In this document: positions 40,894 to 49,558 of the stretch, in pieces
Numbering within the stretch: position 1 is the stretch's first letter
Layout: each line of letters starts with the position of its first letter
From: Gammaproteobacteria bacterium
GTDB taxonomy: Bacteria > Pseudomonadota > Gammaproteobacteria > Thiohalomonadales > Thiohalomonadaceae
DNA: 49,558 nt
NCBI GenBank assembly: GCA_003252455.1
Contig: QKED01000057.1
Location: 1-49,558 of the forward strand
Direction of reading: 5' to 3'
The notes under the pieces: generated by a model
What the model saw: the letters and a program-made list of their open reading frames with translations, nothing else
What the model was told of the DNA's origin: nothing
Databases searched by the model: none
Translations under genes and position numbers: made by a program

Positions 40894-41631
40894 TCACGTT
40901 AAAGCCAACCTGCGGAGTACGGATATGAATCGATGTATTTGATCCTGCTCCTCACCAGCGCCAGCTTGAAATTCATCAACCGTAACTCCGGTTGCCGTTT
41001 CGGTTAAACGAAGACGCTTCAAATATTGACGGACAACCGTGCCATCGAGAGACTTCGTGCTTCGGCTGAAACGAATGCTGCGCGCGCCGTAAGAGACAAC
41101 ATAAGATGCCCCCGAGACCTTGGTGTTTGCTCCCGCTTGCTCACATTTAGAAAGGAATTCCTGGGCCTTCATCGCACTCGGCCGCATCTGACGAGGTTGG
41201 ATGCGCTGACGAACCCAGCCCGTAATTTCACGAACTACGCCATCGGCGTCCATGCCATGATCCTGTGTTGGGAACCCATCAGCAGCTACAGCCAACACCA
41301 TGTTGTAAATTTCATCATCACTCAGTTCAAAGCTCAGGAGCCGGTCGTTTCGAAAGAGCACCGTAAGCAACGTAACCAAAGCAGTTCGCTTATTGCCGTT
41401 GTGAAACGCATGATTTTTTACAAGTGAATGAAATAGTGCCGCTGCCTTTTCTTCCAACGTTGAATATTTTTCAACATTCCCCATGCCGGTTCGGGGCCTC
41501 ATGCATGCTGATTCCAGCATGATTTCTGATTTCACTCCAGCAGGAGAGATGGGATCACCATCGTGATCGAACAGAAAAACAAGGCTTTCGTGAATAGAAA
41601 CAATGTCAGCCGATTCTGGAATCCAAAGCAT
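40894..41631 (-). CDS. Fic/Doc-family protein with C-terminal extension
   Basis: From ATG 41631 a 245-aa protein (a TTG two codons earlier, better placed behind GGAGAT, is an alternative start). The N-terminal ~150 residues are Fic/Doc: the catalytic motif HAFHNGNKRTA (HxFxxGNxR), preceded by YSTLEEKAAALFHSLVKN. Fic proteins attach AMP or phosphate to target proteins. No inhibitory (S/T)xxxE(G/N) helix is evident at the front, so an external antitoxin would be expected, yet none is adjacent. The last ~95 residues (NTKVSGASYVVSYGARSIRF onward) form an extra domain that I do not recognise. Confidence 0.78.
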   Translation of the reverse strand: MLWIPESADIVSIHESLVFLFDHDGDPISPAGVKSEIMLESACMRPRTGMGNVEKYSTLEEKAAALFHSLVKNHAFHNGNKRTALVTLLTVLFRNDRLLSFELSDDEIYNMVLAVAADGFPTQDHGMDADGVVREITGWVRQRIQPRQMRPSAMKAQEFLSKCEQAGANTKVSGASYVVSYGARSIRFSRSTKSLDGTVVRQYLKRLRLTETATGVTVDEFQAGAGEEQDQIHRFISVLRRLALT

Positions 41632-41761
41632 CGTCAAACGATCTCCGTTTTAGGACTTAACGCCTTGTTCTGCCGCGTTGTTAGATTCTAGGCTTTTGTG
41701 CTAGTTGGGCACAAATGGCACAACGAAAAAAACGTCGGCAGGTGAAATTGTTAAGTTAATG

Positions 41762-42559
41762 TCATGATAGAAAGTGGGCAAAGTACCCTCGCACTATTCC
41801 CTTGCAATCATTGGCAAATTGGTCGATTTCTTGCTTTGATAGCTGAACCTTCTTTCCAACTTGCGATGTTGACACACCTGTTTTATCAACATATTTATGA
41901 TCTATAACACCAAGATTGTGACTAAGCGCATGCCTCTTTTGAAAAGTCTCAAGGAATTGAGGCCAGCTTAGTACATATTTTGAAATATCAAGCAAAGAGG
42001 CTAATGTTTGTTGAGCTGTAGCTACATCTTGGAAAGATCTAACGCGCGGGTGGCTGCTGTGAAGAGAGGCTGCATTTTGAATAGCGATTATATTGCATTG
42101 ACGCATAACCCCATCAAATGTGCTTACCAATGAACCCAACATCTCGGACAGGTCATCAGATTGAATTGAAGTTGAAGCGAGCACTCTGTCTGCGCAAGTA
42201 TTCATTACCTCTCTTGGGTTTTCAATAGCACATACAGGACATCGATTAATAGCTCCATAGGTCTTAAATTCTGTGTTGTCTCTAGGGCAAATGAACTCTT
42301 GGTCGAAAGCACGATTTGCTGGTGAAGCAAGAGGTGAAAAATTCTTAATCGAAGAATAGTGGCCACATGCTGCCGGACAGCAAATTTGCAATTCTTCTCG
42401 GAAATAGGAGTTTTCTTGTGGCAAAAGAATCCAACTTTCAGTGCCGCACGTTGGGCACACTACATTAAGACCAACATTATTTGGGTCCATTTTTCGAAGT
42501 ATGGTCTGATATAGCATTTGTTGCTCTTCTAAAAATCTTCGATAATTACTAATGGCCAT
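41762..42559 (-). CDS. zinc-ribbon protein with HEPN-like C-terminal motif
   Basis: A 265-aa protein of low GC. The N-terminal half has CPTCGTESW, then CCPAACGH and a later CPRDNTEFKTYGAINRCPVC: two or more zinc ribbons. The C-terminal half contains FQKRHALSHNLGVIDHKYVD, which matches the HEPN-type R-x(4-6)-H catalytic pattern seen in many RNA-cutting or abortive-infection proteins, followed by KVQLSKQEIDQFANDC. I infer a nucleic-acid-targeting defence or toxin protein. There is no adjacent partner gene apart from the Fic gene. It shows strong compositional difference from the core genome, so it is probably acquired. Confidence 0.6.
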   Translation of the reverse strand: MAISNYRRFLEEQQMLYQTILRKMDPNNVGLNVVCPTCGTESWILLPQENSYFREELQICCPAACGHYSSIKNFSPLASPANRAFDQEFICPRDNTEFKTYGAINRCPVCAIENPREVMNTCADRVLASTSIQSDDLSEMLGSLVSTFDGVMRQCNIIAIQNAASLHSSHPRVRSFQDVATAQQTLASLLDISKYVLSWPQFLETFQKRHALSHNLGVIDHKYVDKTGVSTSQVGKKVQLSKQEIDQFANDCKGIVRGYFAHFLS

Positions 42560-43411: not shown

Positions 43412-43439
43412 ATTTCATGAAGTACCAAGGAGGAGTCGT

Positions 43440-44675
43440 ATGTCGGCAGATATCAGCCTGTGTGGGGGGTTCACCTCAGCAGGCAACACCCAAGCCACGA
43501 TTGAGGCGCTACGCGCGGCGGCGCAGCTCGCTGTCCAGGTGGAGTTCACCACCATCCCCGCCTATCTCACCGCGCTCTATTCGATCACCGATACCGCCAG
43601 TGAGGCGTATCAGCACCTGCGCAGTGTGGTGATGGAGGAGATGTACCACGTCAACCAGGCGGCGAATATCCTCATCGGCCTCGGTGGGGTTCCGCAGTTC
43701 ACCGGTACGGCCACGCCGGTCTACCCCGGCAAGCTGCCGGGGGCCAACCCCGAAACCACCCCCACGGTCGGGCTCTATCGCGCCTCGCCGGAGGTGTTCG
43801 GCAATGTCTTTGCGGCCATCGAGACCCCGGCCCCGGCCAACGCGCCGCCGCAGGGGAGTAACTACGACAGCATCGCCCAGCTCTACCACTATCTGTGGGA
43901 CGCCATATACAGCTTCGACGGCAACCCGTTCGACCAGGGCACGGTGGGTGGCCGCCAGCGCGAGGATATCTACCTCGGCAAGTTCGGCGGCAATGTCATC
44001 CCGGTGACCGATAAGGAGAGCTGCTGCCGCGCCATCACCGAGATCGTCAAGCAGGGCGAGGGCAGTGTGCCGCTCGACAGCCCGCTCATCCCGATCCAGA
44101 GCTACGGCAGCTACAACCACTACGGCAAGCGCACCGACGGCACCTATGGGCCGATCCTCGGCACGCCCTACGAGATGAGCCACTTCATCAAGTTCCGCAG
44201 CATCGCCCAGTCGAGCAGCCCCTTCCCGCCGACCCTGCCGATCACCTCCAACCCCAATCCGGAGGAGTTCAGCAACCCGCAGGCGAGCGCGCAGGCCGCC
44301 ACCTTCGACCTCAACTACAGCGTGATGCTGCGTGCCCTGGAGCAGACCTTCACCGCCGAGGCGCCCGACCCCTACTTCGGCGTGGTGCTCAATATGATGC
44401 ACCGCGTGCTGCCGAAGCTGGCCCGTGCGCTGATGAACACCCCGGCGTTTAGTGGCGGCGACGCCTCGGTCGGCCCCAACGCGGCCCCCGCGTGGCGCTA
44501 CGTGGATAACAGTGGCTTCGCCATGCTGGAGCTATCCATCGCCGCCATCATCGAGGCCGAGGCCAAGGCCCACCCGCAGCCCAACGCCCGCGTGCGCGAG
44601 TCGCTCACGGTGTTGGACGAGGCGTTGGTCGCGGTGCGCGAGATGCGCCCGATGGCCGAAAAACTTGGACTGTGA
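43440..44675 (+). CDS. VioB-type ferritin-like protein of a LodAB cassette
   Basis: A 411-aa protein with the ferritin-like domain found in VioB-type iminophenyl-pyruvate dimer synthases (PF12902 pattern): AAQLAVQVEFTTIPAYLTAL and VVMEEMYHVNQAANILIGLG give the E...E-x-x-H iron-ligand layout, and GGVPQFTG follows. The second half continues with NYSVMLRALEQTFTA and LNMMHRVLPKLARALMNTPA. The ATG at 43440 is preceded by AAGGAGG; an open frame 20 codons further upstream crosses the hairpin and is not needed. It is the first gene of a three-gene operon (23-base gap to the next). A di-iron oxidase or partner role for the quinoprotein is inferred. Confidence 0.82.
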   Translation: MSADISLCGGFTSAGNTQATIEALRAAAQLAVQVEFTTIPAYLTALYSITDTASEAYQHLRSVVMEEMYHVNQAANILIGLGGVPQFTGTATPVYPGKLPGANPETTPTVGLYRASPEVFGNVFAAIETPAPANAPPQGSNYDSIAQLYHYLWDAIYSFDGNPFDQGTVGGRQREDIYLGKFGGNVIPVTDKESCCRAITEIVKQGEGSVPLDSPLIPIQSYGSYNHYGKRTDGTYGPILGTPYEMSHFIKFRSIAQSSSPFPPTLPITSNPNPEEFSNPQASAQAATFDLNYSVMLRALEQTFTAEAPDPYFGVVLNMMHRVLPKLARALMNTPAFSGGDASVGPNAAPAWRYVDNSGFAMLELSIAAIIEAEAKAHPQPNARVRESLTVLDEALVAVREMRPMAEKLGL

Positions 44676-44698
44676 AGCAGGAGCCGCAAGGAGAGACC

Positions 44699-46486
44699 AT
44701 GTCGTACAAAATCTACCCCGCCATCGGCGTTGCCCGCGTCGGCAACGCACCGAGCAAGTTCTACATCGGCCCCGAGAGCTATCGCGGCCTGCCGAGCAAC
44801 CCAGACGATACCGACTTCACCGAGCAGGACCTGCGCGACGACCAGGGCCGCCTCTGCCGTCAAGCGGCCCGTTTTCGCATCTACCACATCGATGACGATA
44901 CCGGCGTCGAGACCGAGATCACCCTCGACTCGCCCAACGTCAAGAGCATCCGCTGGGTCGCGCACATCGCCAACAAGAAGGCGAGCTGGTACGAGTTCGC
45001 CACCAACGAGGGCGAGCAGGGCTACGCCTCCAACCACCCGCTGCGTAACGCCGGGGTGGCGGACCGCAGCACGCTGATCATCGACCCAGGCCCGCGTGTG
45101 ATCCTCGGGCGCAGCGTCACCGGGGTGAACTTCGATAGCGCCAGCGTGCCGAGCGGCTACACCGGTGCAAACTTCCCCGACGGCGTGCTCAACCCGGTGG
45201 GCGAGGCGATCACCACCCTCGGCGAACTCCAGACCGACGCGGCGGGGCGCCTGCTGCTGCTCGGCGGCCTCGGCATCGCTGGTTCGCTCGACGACGACCC
45301 GGCCATCCACCAATACGCCAACAACGACGGCTGGTGGGACGACACCGCCGACGGACCGGTGAGTGCGGAGATCGAGTTCGAGGGCGAGGCCGAGCTGGTC
45401 ACCGCCGAGGCGGCCTGGGTGCTGGTCGGGCCCCCCTCCTACGCCCCGGAGATCCCCAACCTGGTCACCCTCTGGGACACCATCTTCGACGCCGCCGTGC
45501 GCAACGATAAGTTCCCCGCGATCCAGTCCCAAGGCTTCTGGAAGCGCGGCGCCGACGGCTACCTGCCCAACTTCCAAACCGAGATCCAGCCCCTGCTGGA
45601 GCGCGCCACCCTCTACCCCTGGGTGACCGCCATCCCGCCCAAGCCGCACACCTTCGACATGACCCGCCTCGGCACCCTGCCGGTGGCAGGCGAGAGCGAC
45701 GAAAACCGCGGCCTGCGCAACTGGATCCTCGACTACCTGCGCCCGCCGAGCGCGGAGAACAGCATCATCAACGCCAAGGGCGGCACCATGATGCCCTACC
45801 TGGCCGGTGACAACTGCCTCATCGAGGGCACCCTCACCTCCAAGTACCTACGCCTCACCGACACCCAGTACTTCTTCCTCCAGCAGTGGGCCGACGGCTG
45901 GTTCGTCAATCAGGCCGACACCACCTCCGCCGCCGAGGCGCTCACCCGCAACGTGCTGGAGAACTGCGTCGGCGGCGCCTTCTCGCCCGGCATCGAGATG
46001 ACCTGGATCTCGCGCAACACCAGCATCTACCGCGCCGACGACCCCTTTCGCATCAACCACAACCTCTGCCTCGACGGCCCGCTCGGGCTCGGTTTCACCC
46101 CGGAGGCGATGGAGCCGGGCGACGTCACCCGCTACATGGCCATCCCCTGGCAAGCGGACTTCAACGAGTGCTCCTCGCAGCCGATGGATGGCCGGGTGAT
46201 CTGGTGGTGGCCCGCGCAGCGCCCCGAGTTCGTCTACCTCGAACCGGAGCCGGTGAGTGCACTCAAGGCGATCCCCGCCCCGCCGACCATCGACAGCGGG
46301 CGTCAGGTGGCCTGGATCGGCACCGACTTCGACCAGACGCGCGACAATTTCATCGCCTTCCCCGACGACATCCTGATGGTCAAATATTGGGACCAGCTCG
46401 GCTTCGTCATGCAGAAACTGGTCGACGGCGAACAGCGCTTCGTCGAGGTCTCCCGCACGCTGGCGCGCCCCGAGCCCAATGCCTGA
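44699..46486 (+). CDS. LodA-like quinoprotein amino-acid oxidase with predicted CTQ cofactor
   Basis: From ATG 44699 (AAGGAGAG upstream) a 595-aa protein. It begins YKIYPAIGVARVGNAPSKFY, the characteristic start of LodA/GoxA oxidases, and continues with RCTM-like segments (GTMMPYLAGDNCLIEGT, YFFLQQWADGWFVNQ). The cofactor residues can be proposed: C423 in ENCVGGAFSPGIEMTW and W484 in MAIPWQADFNECSS, 61 residues apart, against about 65 in LodA (C516/W581, from memory). These enzymes oxidise lysine, glycine or other amino acids to an aldehyde or keto acid with H2O2 and ammonia. It is shorter than LodA (about 726 aa). Substrate unknown. It overlaps lodB-like by eight bases. Confidence 0.85.
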   Translation: MSYKIYPAIGVARVGNAPSKFYIGPESYRGLPSNPDDTDFTEQDLRDDQGRLCRQAARFRIYHIDDDTGVETEITLDSPNVKSIRWVAHIANKKASWYEFATNEGEQGYASNHPLRNAGVADRSTLIIDPGPRVILGRSVTGVNFDSASVPSGYTGANFPDGVLNPVGEAITTLGELQTDAAGRLLLLGGLGIAGSLDDDPAIHQYANNDGWWDDTADGPVSAEIEFEGEAELVTAEAAWVLVGPPSYAPEIPNLVTLWDTIFDAAVRNDKFPAIQSQGFWKRGADGYLPNFQTEIQPLLERATLYPWVTAIPPKPHTFDMTRLGTLPVAGESDENRGLRNWILDYLRPPSAENSIINAKGGTMMPYLAGDNCLIEGTLTSKYLRLTDTQYFFLQQWADGWFVNQADTTSAAEALTRNVLENCVGGAFSPGIEMTWISRNTSIYRADDPFRINHNLCLDGPLGLGFTPEAMEPGDVTRYMAIPWQADFNECSSQPMDGRVIWWWPAQRPEFVYLEPEPVSALKAIPAPPTIDSGRQVAWIGTDFDQTRDNFIAFPDDILMVKYWDQLGFVMQKLVDGEQRFVEVSRTLARPEPNA

Positions 46487-47585
46487 GACCGACCTGCTCA
46501 TCCTCGGTGCCGGACCCGCAGGCTGCGCCACCGCGCTGGCCCTGCGCGACGCCGGGATCGAGCGCGTCACCCTGGTGGACAGACCGCTGGTGCAGCCGTT
46601 TCGCATCGGCGAGTCTGCCACCCCAGACATCCCCCGGCTGCTCACGCAGCTGGGCCTGCCCAAAGAGTGGATCCACGCCTACGGCGCCCCCTACCACGCC
46701 AACCTCTCGCTCTGGGGCGGCGTGCGCCGTAGCGACGACTTCCTGCTGCGCGGCCAAGGCCACGGCTGGCACCTCGACCGCGCCGCCTTCGACGCCGCCC
46801 TGCGCGAGGCCGCCCGCGCGCGTGGCGTCGAGCTGCTACGCCCCGCCGCGCTCACCCAGGTCGAGCGCCTCGACGGGCAAGGCTGGTCGCTCCAGCTACA
46901 AGGGGCCGACGGCCAGGCGCTGACCTATCGCGCCCGCTTCATCGTCGACGCCGCTGGTCGCCGCGCGCCGCTGGCGACCCGCCTCGGCGCCACCCGCCAC
47001 AGCCTCGATAGGCTCGTCGCCCTGGCGCAGATCCACCCCGACGGCAGCGCACTCACCGGCCACGCCCTGGTCGAACCCTGCGCGGACGGCTGGTGGTACG
47101 CCGCGCGCCTGCCCGACGGGCGCGCCATCGTCACCCTGATGAGCGACGCCGACCTCGCCCGCGAGCGTGGCTGGTACCACGCCCCCGCCTACCGCGACGC
47201 CTGGCGCGCCAGCGAGGCGCTGCATCACTACCTCCCGCCCCCGACCAGCCTCCAAACACCCGCCGCCTTCCCCGCCCACAGCGGCTACCTCGACCGCGCC
47301 GCCGGGGAGGGCTGGCTCGCCGTCGGCGACGCCCTCATCGGCTTCGACCCGCTCACCTCATCGGGCATCGCCGGGGCGCTGAGCGACGCCCTCGCCGCCG
47401 TCGAGCCGATCAAACAGGCCCTCGCAGGCGACACCGCGAGCAAAGAGGCGGCACGCCGCTACGCCCAGCGCGCCAACACCACCCTGCAACGCTACCTAGA
47501 GCAGCGCCAACAGCACTACCGGGACGAGGCGCGCTGGCGCGACCGGCCCTTTTGGGCACGGCGCAACGGCGCAGAGGCGCAGTGA
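46479..47585 (+). CDS. LodB-like FAD-dependent maturase
   Basis: A 368-aa flavoprotein: Rossmann motif LLILGAGPAGCATALAL at residues 6-22, the FRIGESATPDIPRLL motif as in tryptophan-halogenase-like enzymes, then FIVDAAGRRAPLATRL and WLAVGDALIGFDPLTSSGIA. LodB proteins are required to build the cysteine tryptophylquinone in LodA by hydroxylating the tryptophan. The start overlaps the LodA stop by eight bases (ATG at 46479), a strongly coupled pair. The C-terminal tail is charged (YLEQRQQHYRDEARWRDR). Confidence 0.87.
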   Translation: MPETDLLILGAGPAGCATALALRDAGIERVTLVDRPLVQPFRIGESATPDIPRLLTQLGLPKEWIHAYGAPYHANLSLWGGVRRSDDFLLRGQGHGWHLDRAAFDAALREAARARGVELLRPAALTQVERLDGQGWSLQLQGADGQALTYRARFIVDAAGRRAPLATRLGATRHSLDRLVALAQIHPDGSALTGHALVEPCADGWWYAARLPDGRAIVTLMSDADLARERGWYHAPAYRDAWRASEALHHYLPPPTSLQTPAAFPAHSGYLDRAAGEGWLAVGDALIGFDPLTSSGIAGALSDALAAVEPIKQALAGDTASKEAARRYAQRANTTLQRYLEQRQQHYRDEARWRDRPFWARRNGAEAQ

Positions 47586-47602
47586 GCAACAGCGCGATGA
47601 AA

Positions 47603-48543
47603 GTTTAAGGGTGGATGTCCATGTTCTGCTGCCGGAAATCCCATTCTTCCCTGCTGAACAAGGCTTCCATTTCGACCTTTTGTGTCGAAATTGGGCTGCC
47701 ATACAGACCAAATCCTGGGTTAATCGAAGAGGCTTTCATTTCTACCTAGTTGGGGAGTTTAAGGGTGGGTGTCCTACCTACTCCTGAACGCCCAACCTCT
47801 CTGCGTGTCGTCAGCTGCTCGGCTGACAACCTTACTCCCTTCCTGATTGACCTTCGGTGTTCAGCCGAGGGTTCACTGCGACTTCCTACCGGAAATCCCA
47901 TTCTGCCCTGCCGAACAAGGCTTCCATTTTGTGTTGGAATTGGGCTGCCATACGGTCCAAAACCGAGGTTAGCCGAAGAGGTTTTCATTTCTTACTTGCT
48001 GGGGAGCTTAAGGGTGGGTGTCCGAGCAACCCCGCTTACCGCCTACGTGACTATCTGGAGCTGGTCGACTGGAGCGGACGGGCGCTACGCGATGATAAGC
48101 GCGGTGCCATTGCTCAAAGCACACCGCGGATCTTGGAGCGGCTGAAGATCGAGCCGCAGTATTGGCTCGTGGTGGCCAATGAGTTCGAGGGTCGGCTCAC
48201 TGGCTTGGTTGGGGCGGCCCACCGCCTCAAACAGGCTGCCTCCCGGCTCGGCTATCAGCGAACGCCCAATCTCTCTGCGTGTCGTCAGCTGCTAGGCTGA
48301 CGCGCTCTCTGCCTTCCTGACTGGCCTTCGGTCTTCAACCGAGGGCTCACTGCGCCTTCCTGCTGGAAATCCCATTCTGCCCTGCCGAAAAAGCGCCCAT
48401 TTCGACCTTATTGCGTCGAAATTGGGCTGCCATACGGTCCAAATCCGGGGTTAGCCGATGAGACGATCATTTCTTATTACCTGGGGAGTTTAAGAGTGGA
48501 TGTCCTAGCTCTGACCATTGCGGGAGTTTAACGATGGATGTCC
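47603..48543 (+). repeat. tandem array of degenerate transposon ends
   Basis: The motif GTTTAAGGGTGGATGTCC occurs five times with small changes: 47603, 47757, 48006, 48488 and 48526. Between the copies a body of about 120 bases recurs three times (GGAAATCCCATTCT...TTGGGCTGCCATAC; from about 47632, 47890 and 48364). In the last two copies it is preceded by a ~105-base tail that includes the last codons of a transposase (GCGTGTCGTCAGCTGCT; about 47785 and 48259). The whole region looks like repeated right ends of one element family, left by nested insertions or recombination. It separates the LodAB cassette from the toxin-immunity locus. The stretch 47586-48632 has no intact gene. Confidence 0.8.
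48022..48300 (+). pseudogene. C-terminal remnant of a Y1/REP-associated-type transposase
   Basis: An open frame without start reads PAYRLRDYLELVDWSGRALR, DDKRGAIAQSTPRILERLKI and GYQRTPNLSACRQLLG to a TGA at 48300. This matches the conserved C-terminal part of large transposases related to REP-associated tyrosine transposases (YLELVDWTGR..DDKRG). The N-terminal catalytic part is missing; the frame begins at the repeat motif at 48006-48023. The same 3' end, frameshifted, recurs near 47785. Confidence 0.7.
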
Positions 48544-48555
48544 GATTTACGCTGG

Positions 48556-48640
48556 TAGTTACTTCCTAGTTACTGTCGCTTGATCTGGCACCGGCTTTGC
48601 CCGGCGCACTGGGTGTCTTAATTACTCCCTAGTTACACTC
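48556..48640. repeat. short direct repeat near the immunity gene end
   Basis: TTACTTCCTAGTTACTGTC (about 48560-48578) and TTACTCCCTAGTTACACTC (about 48622-48640) differ at four positions. The second copy overlaps the 3' end of the minus-strand gene at 48633. They could be the footprint of a past insertion or deletion. Confidence 0.4.
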
Positions 48641-48920
48641 TTTCCCATTCCGATGATTTGACCTCAAACTCCCATTCTGCTTGCTCCATAGCTCCACGAA
48701 CGTCATCATGAAAGGTATCAGTCATCTCTTGGCCGACCTCGTCTAAATATAATAAATAATATCCATCATCTCCTGGGTATTTGGCTATTTGCAGTTCAGA
48801 AGGGACGCACAAAATACCCCTGCCAGAATAATGTTCTGTTTTACCAGTAGCGTTATGCGAACCAGCAATTCGGACTCTCCAGATAACCAAATATTCCTCA
48901 TTCATCACATTCTCGCTCAC
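48633..48920 (-). CDS. putative immunity protein for the HINT toxin
   Basis: A 95-aa acidic protein: EEYLVIWRVRIAGSHNATGK, GDDGYYLLYLDEVGQEMTD and a C-terminal EQAEWEFEVKSSEWE. The last pattern (a TDTxH-like segment followed by A-x-x-QAE(F/W)EF and EW) is common in immunity proteins of polymorphic toxin systems. The start is a GTG at 48920 whose bases overlap the toxin stop (GTGA); an ATG five codons later is the alternative. Direct coupling to the toxin gene supports the immunity role. Confidence 0.75.
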   Translation of the reverse strand: MSENVMNEEYLVIWRVRIAGSHNATGKTEHYSGRGILCVPSELQIAKYPGDDGYYLLYLDEVGQEMTDTFHDDVRGAMEQAEWEFEVKSSEWERV

Positions 48921-49558
48921 GGGACAATTTCGACTGAAGTATTTTCAACGACTCTACCACCAGGACGGTCATATGCTTCAAAATGACCATGATGGCGTTT
49001 ACTGCTTGTTTCATGTTTTCCATAACGAACCTGACGCAGTCCATCCTTGGACACATATCGACCACCAGAAAGTGACTTATATCCTTCACCAAGCCACCTT
49101 ATTGCAGAATCCAAAAAGCCGGATTCCGATATTTTACCACCCTCAAACTCTGGTGCTCTTCCGGTGACAACTGACCCACTTTGGCCTTCCCTCTTTGGAA
49201 CAATCTTACAAGGATCATCCCATCCTCCCGCATTATGCACCAAAACCCCAACATCCCCCACAAAGTAGCTATGGTCGCCCGCTACTTCGATGTTGTAGGT
49301 CTCCTCCACCCGATCGAGACGCTCGACGGTCACGACCTCTAGCTCCCCATCGCGCGCCAACACGCGGTCGCCCGCTTGCAGCGCCTCGGTCTCCCGCCAC
49401 TGGCCGTCTGTCAGCCCATAGGGGTGGTCCGCCGTGGATTCGACACGGATGCTCTCGCCTTCAGCCGTCTTGAGGGTGACGGCGTAGAGCACTTTGCCGT
49501 GGGTGACGTAGAGTTCGGTGATGGGCTGGAGGCGTATGGCACCGCTCTCGGCATCACG
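48917..49558 (-). CDS. polymorphic toxin C-terminus with HINT domain (5' end beyond window)
   Basis: The minus strand is open from the right edge (213 residues visible). It starts inside a pretoxin HINT (intein-like) domain: ITELYVTHGKVLYAV, DHPYGLTDGQWRETEALQAG and YNIEVAGDHSYFVGDVGVLV ending VLVHNAGG, the usual cut point. Beyond it lies a toxin domain of about 100 residues (DDPCKIVPKREGQSGSVVTG, LRQVRYGKHETSSKRHHGHF, EAYDRPGGRVVENTSVEIVP). Its His cluster (KHETSSKRHHGHFE) suggests a metal-independent RNase or similar active site, but I cannot place it in a family with confidence. The N-terminal delivery part (Rhs, CdiA or other) is outside the window. Confidence 0.78.
   Translation of the reverse strand, partial: RDAESGAIRLQPITELYVTHGKVLYAVTLKTAEGESIRVESTADHPYGLTDGQWRETEALQAGDRVLARDGELEVVTVERLDRVEETYNIEVAGDHSYFVGDVGVLVHNAGGWDDPCKIVPKREGQSGSVVTGRAPEFEGGKISESGFLDSAIRWLGEGYKSLSGGRYVSKDGLRQVRYGKHETSSKRHHGHFEAYDRPGGRVVENTSVEIVP

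Follow-up and report, generated by a model that had tools for sequence, protein, structure and literature searches.

A VioB-type ferritin-like protein is a probable dedicated partner of one clade of LodA-like oxidases

A gene for a ferritin-like protein related to VioB accompanies one clade of LodA-like oxidases in bacteria of several phyla, and its product is probably a dedicated partner of that clade. LodA-like enzymes are H2O2-releasing, often antimicrobial oxidases that are encoded with a maturase. The window analyzed here (the whole 49,558-nucleotide stretch of contig QKED01000057.1, from a gammaproteobacterium) carries a LodA-like gene (A) and a LodB-like gene (B) behind a gene for the ferritin-like protein (F). 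Because the adjacency of F and A is both clade-wide and clade-specific, we consider F a partner dedicated to one LodA clade and probably able to bind metal. The cassette comprises the following features:

43420–43439, + strand: ribosome-binding-like stretch with AGGAGG, directly 5′ of the F start, read from the sequence
43440–44675, + strand: F, VioB-type ferritin-like protein, 411 aa (PF12902, 2.2e-36)
44699–46486, + strand: A, LodA-like oxidase, 595 aa (LodA_N, 9.6e-69; LodA_C, 4.2e-39)
46169–46171 and 46208–46210, + strand: C491 and W504 of A, predicted CTQ residues (LodA alignment and invariance)
46479–47585, + strand: B, LodB-like FAD protein, 368 aa, presumed CTQ maturase (LodB is the best NCBIfam match, 2e-73)

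The genes share one strand in the order F-A-B, with 23 bases between F and A and an 8-base overlap of A and B, which confirms the three-gene cassette and the tight coupling put forward in a preliminary description of this DNA; the families are those given by Pfam and NCBIfam. Translation of A might instead begin at an in-frame upstream GTG at 44672. Scores for A are far over the Pfam cut-offs (LodA_N 232.1 bits, cut-off 26.3; LodA_C 134.1 bits, cut-off 25) and under those of the curated equivalogs for LodA (NF038172, 364.1 against 600 bits) and the glycine oxidase GoxA (NF038173, 246.4 against 750 bits). The same holds for B, which is under the cut-offs for LodB (NF038171, 247.6 against 400 bits, yet its best NCBIfam match), QhpG (206.5 against 240 bits), and GoxB (203.8 against 400 bits). 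Since both proteins score below the curated cut-offs for LodA, GoxA, LodB, GoxB, and QhpG, they are in the family without being a known member of it. F matches PF12902 at 126.2 bits (cut-off 22.3), and no NCBIfam model matched it at E 0.001, including the VioB model TIGR04492 (1003 positions).

F and A co-occur across genomes. Among 398 Pseudomonadota genomes, LodA_N is found in 12 and PF12902 in 17 (one of the 17 under the family cut-off), and the two are found together in 4/12, against PF12902 in 13/386 LodA-negative genomes (P = 0.0009, Fisher's test; P = 0.007 without the window's genome). The genes adjoin in three of the four double-positive genomes (G000, G056, and G060) and lie on separate contigs in the fourth (G206). 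We then compared 94 A loci, consisting of the best 80 of 368 relatives from a scan of genome contigs, 13 further loci, and the window, with one best A per locus (second A copies of L043, L060, and L074 are outside the tree) and with L025 and L104 representing the same locus. Because the best 80 of 368 relatives were taken, distant LodA groups are thinly sampled, and flank lengths are unequal because of contig ends. Within this set, which includes the best 80 of 368 relatives, F is present at 34/94 loci, always upstream of A and on the same strand, at distances from overlap up to 156 bases. B is visible in 31 of these 34, while L029, L032, and L057 stop shortly past A, and a B-like gene is present at 88 of the 94 loci overall. 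The LodA/LodB pairing and the role of F as an extra conserved partner, both claimed earlier, are thus supported by co-occurrence in many genomes. One locus, L060 of Symploca sp. SIO2E9, has two tandem LodA/LodB pairs with F before the first pair only.

In a tree of 91 A proteins, all F-linked members fall into a single clade of 36, of which 34 have F directly upstream, and none of the 55 rows outside this clade has an adjacent F. The suggested check, whether the PF12902 gene co-occurs with LodA/LodB elsewhere, is therefore strongly positive for one LodA clade. The tree is of a quick kind, giving the 36-row clade an SH-aLRT of 85 (unstarred) and its 33-row core 96 (starred), and it leaves out L062 and L090, which are truncated, and L104, which is identical to L025. 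Two exceptions lie inside the clade: in L041, A lies at the contig edge and F is found on another contig of the genome (likewise in the genome of L062, whose truncated A is outside the tree), while L051 is a metagenome-assembled genome (MAG) with A and B and with no F found anywhere in the genome. Mapped on the tree, the F label needs 3 changes, against a mean of 27.6 for shuffled labels (0/500 shuffles as low), or 2 without the contig-edge row L041. Over the 29 loci at which all three proteins are near full length, F and A distances are correlated with r = 0.93 (0/2000 permutations as high); the F-B and A-B correlations (r = 0.875 and 0.854) are also high, as expected for co-inherited genes.

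The trio occurs in Pseudomonadota, Cyanobacteriota, and Actinomycetota, and an F-A pair is present in one Acidobacteriota MAG whose contig stops before B, so that the adjacency extends across four named phyla with A identity down to about 43%. This recurrence in widely separated bacteria indicates that F is probably a dedicated partner. A second look within Chromobacterium gives the same picture: LodA_N is found in 9/19 genomes of the genus (10 genes), all eight genes of the F-clade type have F upstream (8/8, four of them already in the A set), and the two genes of another type have no F in their 1.5-kb flanks.

The genomic setting of the window's cassette bears on a different explanation, that F and A are merely neighbors transferred together on a mobile stretch and share no function. 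The cassette has a GC fraction of 0.66–0.74, against 0.68 in the first 35 kb of the window, and is flanked by a 0.48-GC stretch on one side and a 0.55-GC stretch with repeats on the other; LodA_N was not found among 19 other genomes of the same family, some of them incomplete. The closest relatives of the window's A in the 91-protein tree (drawn from the best 80 of 368 relatives and others) are from Ideonella and Halomonadaceae, and no stretch of viral contigs matched patterns built from A. The region had been called acquired-looking, and its low-GC flanks and the result from the same family agree with this, whereas the cassette itself has a GC content like that of the first 35 kb. Although the flanks and the negative result from the same family would suit joint transfer, the adjacency persists over four phyla and considerable divergence of A, the F-A distances stay short, and the clade specificity of F in the tree, together with the Chromobacterium check, disfavors chance neighbors or hitch-hikers. 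We regard shared transfer without shared function as highly improbable.

Several other elements surround the cassette. Directly after B, at 47602–48551, are diverged direct repeats comprising 107- and 134-nt families and five copies of a AGTTTAAGGGTGGATGTCC-like 27-mer; they overlap an ORF at 47857–48300 that has no Pfam match and that we take to resemble the tail of a transposase. On the minus strand, 48917–49558 encodes a PT-HINT pretoxin domain with a C-terminal extension and is followed by a small ORF (48633–48920, −) that could be its immunity gene; 48633–49558 (−) probably represents the terminal part of a polymorphic toxin system. Upstream of the cassette, a low-GC segment (40894–42559, −) carries a Fic/DOC-domain ORF (PF02661) and a 265-aa ORF with no Pfam match.

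Residues of A that are predicted to form the cysteine tryptophylquinone (CTQ) cofactor are conserved in all the LodA-like proteins compared. In LodA the CTQ residues are given as C516 and W581 (PMC4417212, available part). In an alignment with solved LodA chains, C516 corresponds to C491 of A and W581 (the second W of YWWP) to W504, and both are invariant in all 92 LodA-like rows of the residue check, which include the window's A. The two residues are 13 positions apart in A, against 65 in LodA; 35 of the 36 F-clade proteins share this spacing of 13, and the remaining one has 12. C423 and W484, proposed earlier as the crosslinked pair and described as having a spacing (61 residues) close to that of LodA, are ruled out by the alignment and by column invariance: position 423 is Cys in 64/92 rows, and W484, invariant together with D487, is like D487 not part of the crosslink. 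The residue assignment therefore falls and the identity of the enzyme does not, and the remark that A is about 130 residues shorter than LodA holds (131 fewer than its 726 aa). We thus predict that CTQ forms from C491 and W504 in A.

F is related to the C-terminal part of VioB and carries a conserved set of potential metal ligands. E35, E66, E67, H70, E128, Q205-G-E-G208, S247, and H248 have no exception in 26 aligned F proteins (the partial F of L036 was left out of this count and kept among the adjacent F genes). VioB of Chromobacterium vaccinii (L044), identified by TIGR04492 with 1737 bits, has the same set; PF12902 lies at 540–762 of this 933-residue, N-terminally cut protein, and F has no counterpart to the long N-terminal part of VioB, which exceeds 500 residues. 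The VioB-type relation first suggested for F is therefore borne out, both by homology and by the shared residues. In the Chromobacterium vaccinii locus this VioB gene (L044:12971–15772, cut at the locus end) lies about 3 kb past the trio on the opposite strand.

The predicted structure of F is that of a ferritin-like protein. The AF2 model (pLDDT 86.4; helices 21–48, 55–80, 117–127, 145–158, 192–207, and 248–256 among others) is closest to 3hl1 in VIA (Z 27.6, 268 residues aligned), which was also alone in passing E 0.001 in Foldseek. It further matches the Dps-like protein 8w1d (Z 13.6) and bacterioferritin 1nf6 (Z 13.1) over about 145 residues, giving a four-helix ferritin fold, with the caveat that helical bundles below about Z 13, close to the scores seen here, may match through arrangement alone. 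The closest solved structure, 3hl1 (CC_0557 of Caulobacter, 38.6 bits by sequence), has 317 aa, against 411 in F, and is titled only "ferritin like protein"; Caulobacter vibrioides is alone among 14 control genomes in having PF12902, and also alone in having LodA_N.

Candidate metal residues of F are E35, E66/E67, H70, E128, E207, and H248. E35, E67, H70, E128, E207, and H248 are invariant, and of these the first three are the ones backed by a weak profile alignment, which places E35 and E67xxH70 at the positions of the first ferritin Glu and the ExxH motif. The second Glu and His may correspond to E207 and H248, split by a low-confidence insertion at about 216–240. F is therefore probably metal-binding, with a candidate diiron-like Glu/His set. 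However, VioB, RebD, and StaD are described as haem-containing in the accessible portion of PMC10847564, so that the residues shared with VioB may not indicate a diiron site, and a haem role for F is also possible.

These features suggest several ways in which F could serve the oxidase. The account we favor, tentatively, is a three-protein oxidase system in which F would act on the product of A. Under this model, the flavoprotein B would complete the CTQ that A derives from its C491 and W504. Mature A would then deaminate an amine or amino acid to an imine or aldehyde with release of ammonia and H2O2, and F would work downstream, where its metal site would employ O2 or H2O2 to oxidize or couple the reactive product, much as VioB acts after the amino-acid oxidase VioA. 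An imine released by A is a plausible substrate of F, as proposed in the preliminary description, and the reaction assigned to F is putative. In favor of this model we count the 34/36 adjacency of F and A, the residues shared by F and VioB, the fold similarity to 3hl1 and then to Dps and bacterioferritin, an FMP-family gene at F loci, and a tyrosinase in the same upstream place in another clade (both below). Against it count the missing VioB N-terminal part of F, its lack of a match to any NCBIfam model, the haem described for VioB and RebD, the L051 genome in which no F was found, and the 22/34 F loci at which the FMP-family gene was not seen. Fold similarity is no proof of function, and peroxide handling or cofactor making would yield the same gene pattern.

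Other LodA-like oxidases have metalloprotein genes of their own next to them. In a separate A clade of 23, a tyrosinase-like gene lies directly upstream in 22/23, within 140 bases, and the exception (L075) starts near a contig edge; four of these loci were confirmed as PF00264 and the others were found with a profile made from those four. The other tree clades have no such metalloprotein neighbor among the genes searched for. Thus, in our own generalization, LodA-like oxidases are repeatedly paired with an oxygen- or peroxide-active metalloprotein that depends on the clade. Possibly, yet another LodA partner is encoded by a 978-aa ORF (L016:8581–11517) with no Pfam or NCBIfam match, which immediately precedes a LodA-like gene from a different clade.

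A gene for an FMP-family haem protein is enriched at F loci (12/34, against 0/60 other loci; P = 1e-6). In nine cases it adjoins F upstream on the same strand, in one it is upstream and divergent (L023), and in two it is downstream of B; it was not seen at the other 22 of the 34 F loci, and one query gave no match in the window's genome. All six members scanned with NCBIfam are over the heme_bind_FMP domain cut-off, and the two of a longer type are also over the FMP-type peroxidase cut-off. The protein, which has neither a Pfam match nor a PDB sequence match, was rejected as an unknown fold once NCBIfam gave it a name; its model is poor (pLDDT 65.2) and Foldseek returned nothing usable, with one row at E ≤ 0.001 and a TM of 0.14. 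The member from Ramlibacter sp. WS9 (L043:4345–5739) has an extra N-terminal stretch with no Pfam match, which presumably recalls a galactose-binding lectin.

The haem protein and the ferritin fold raise the prospect that F guards against peroxide or iron, as a Dps- or bacterioferritin-like protein in which Fe(II) would consume the H2O2 of A or in which iron would be kept from making hydroxyl radicals. Dps and bacterioferritin are the nearest folds after 3hl1, and the six FMP-family members scanned were all over the haem-binding domain cut-off, two of them also over the peroxidase cut-off. For C. crescentus and C. violaceum, LodA-like proteins are reported to take part in generating H2O2 in biofilms (available parts of PMC4417212 and PMC4699246), and some LodA proteins are fused to catalase-fold or PF14518 domains (PMC4417212, in the part available). 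Conversely, 3hl1 matches F much better than Dps and bacterioferritin do (Z 27.6 versus about 13), and the accessible text of PMC3948610 describes the lod operon of Marinomonas mediterranea as two genes, lodA and lodB. Furthermore, a general defense against peroxide needs no partner confined to one clade, and the partner in another clade is a tyrosinase. Tyrosinase is not known to remove H2O2. We accordingly think a guard role rather unlikely.

A further reading places F in cofactor making, its metal site adding the first oxygen to the Trp of CTQ and the LodB-like flavoprotein then completing the process. As far as the available part of PMC7876137 goes, mono-hydroxy-Trp is the substrate of the maturase in LodA and GoxA, and an autocatalytic, copper-dependent first hydroxylation is no more than a supposition for LodA. 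F nearly always accompanies this A clade, and F and the tyrosinase of the other clade are both candidate O2-activating metalloproteins beside A. However, recombinant LodA is reported to need LodB (a title cited in PMC7876137), the lod operon is described with two genes, L051 retains A and B without a detectable F, and VioB, a relative of F, acts on a small molecule (PMC10847564, accessible portion). This makes a part for F in building the cofactor quite improbable. For F and the tyrosinase taken together, it seems unlikely that such clade-specific metal partners carry out the first oxygenation of the cofactor Trp or, alternatively, convert the amine product in a second step that is lineage-specific. 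If true, F would represent either a novel type of enzyme for cofactor synthesis or a VioB-type catalyst that stands alone beside a quinone oxidase. More generally, the F clade suggests either that LodA-like oxidases conceal a small oxidative pathway or that a third protein takes part in making the cofactor, and F allows the VioB C-terminal domain to be studied on its own.

Comparison with known systems places the trio among several oxidase arrangements. The LodA/LodB pair of Marinomonas mediterranea (L-lysine 6-oxidase and its maturase) has the same A-B order, and the window's A shares with it both LodA domains, the CTQ Cys/Trp, and the conserved Asp, while B matches LodB best; the window's cassette differs in the added F and in the shorter Cys-Trp spacing (13 against 65). 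In Chromobacterium, four named species each carry a single LodA, which belongs to the F clade and has F upstream. The C. violaceum LodA-like protein belongs to group IC of Campillo-Brocal 2015, with no substrate reported in the available part (PMC4417212). Its orthology to the F clade is plausible and no stronger, because 10/19 genomes of the genus are without LodA_N and 2/10 LodA genes are of another type. The accessible portions of PMC4417212 and PMC4699246 discuss this protein with no mention of F, and the same is true of those of PMC8929069 and PMC3873617, which mention LodA/LodB or LodB in violacein producers.

The association of a PF12902 gene with lodA is already in print for fungi: in Agaricomycetes (group V of Campillo-Brocal 2015), such a gene is located near lodA and lodB or in the interval separating them (PMC4417212, 2015, in the part available). 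These loci differ from the window's trio in being fungal and in having lodB in the opposite orientation, and the word "ferritin" appears twice in the main text as accessible to us, both times for fungi. Among the papers listed in searches of the open-access literature, none links a bacterial PF12902 gene to lodA, and the clade-wide bacterial F-A-B trio was not found there.

VioA/VioB resembles F and A in that a VioB-type protein has an amino-acid oxidase as its partner; VioA uses FAD (PMC10847564, available portion), whereas A is a predicted quinoprotein. A parallel in gene order is offered by the tyrosinase LodA operons (group ID of Campillo-Brocal 2015; PMC4417212, available part), to which, judging from gene content, the tyrosinase clade of our tree would correspond. 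As in the trio, a metalloprotein gene there lies directly upstream of A, with a copper tyrosinase in place of the ferritin-like protein and with longer A proteins.
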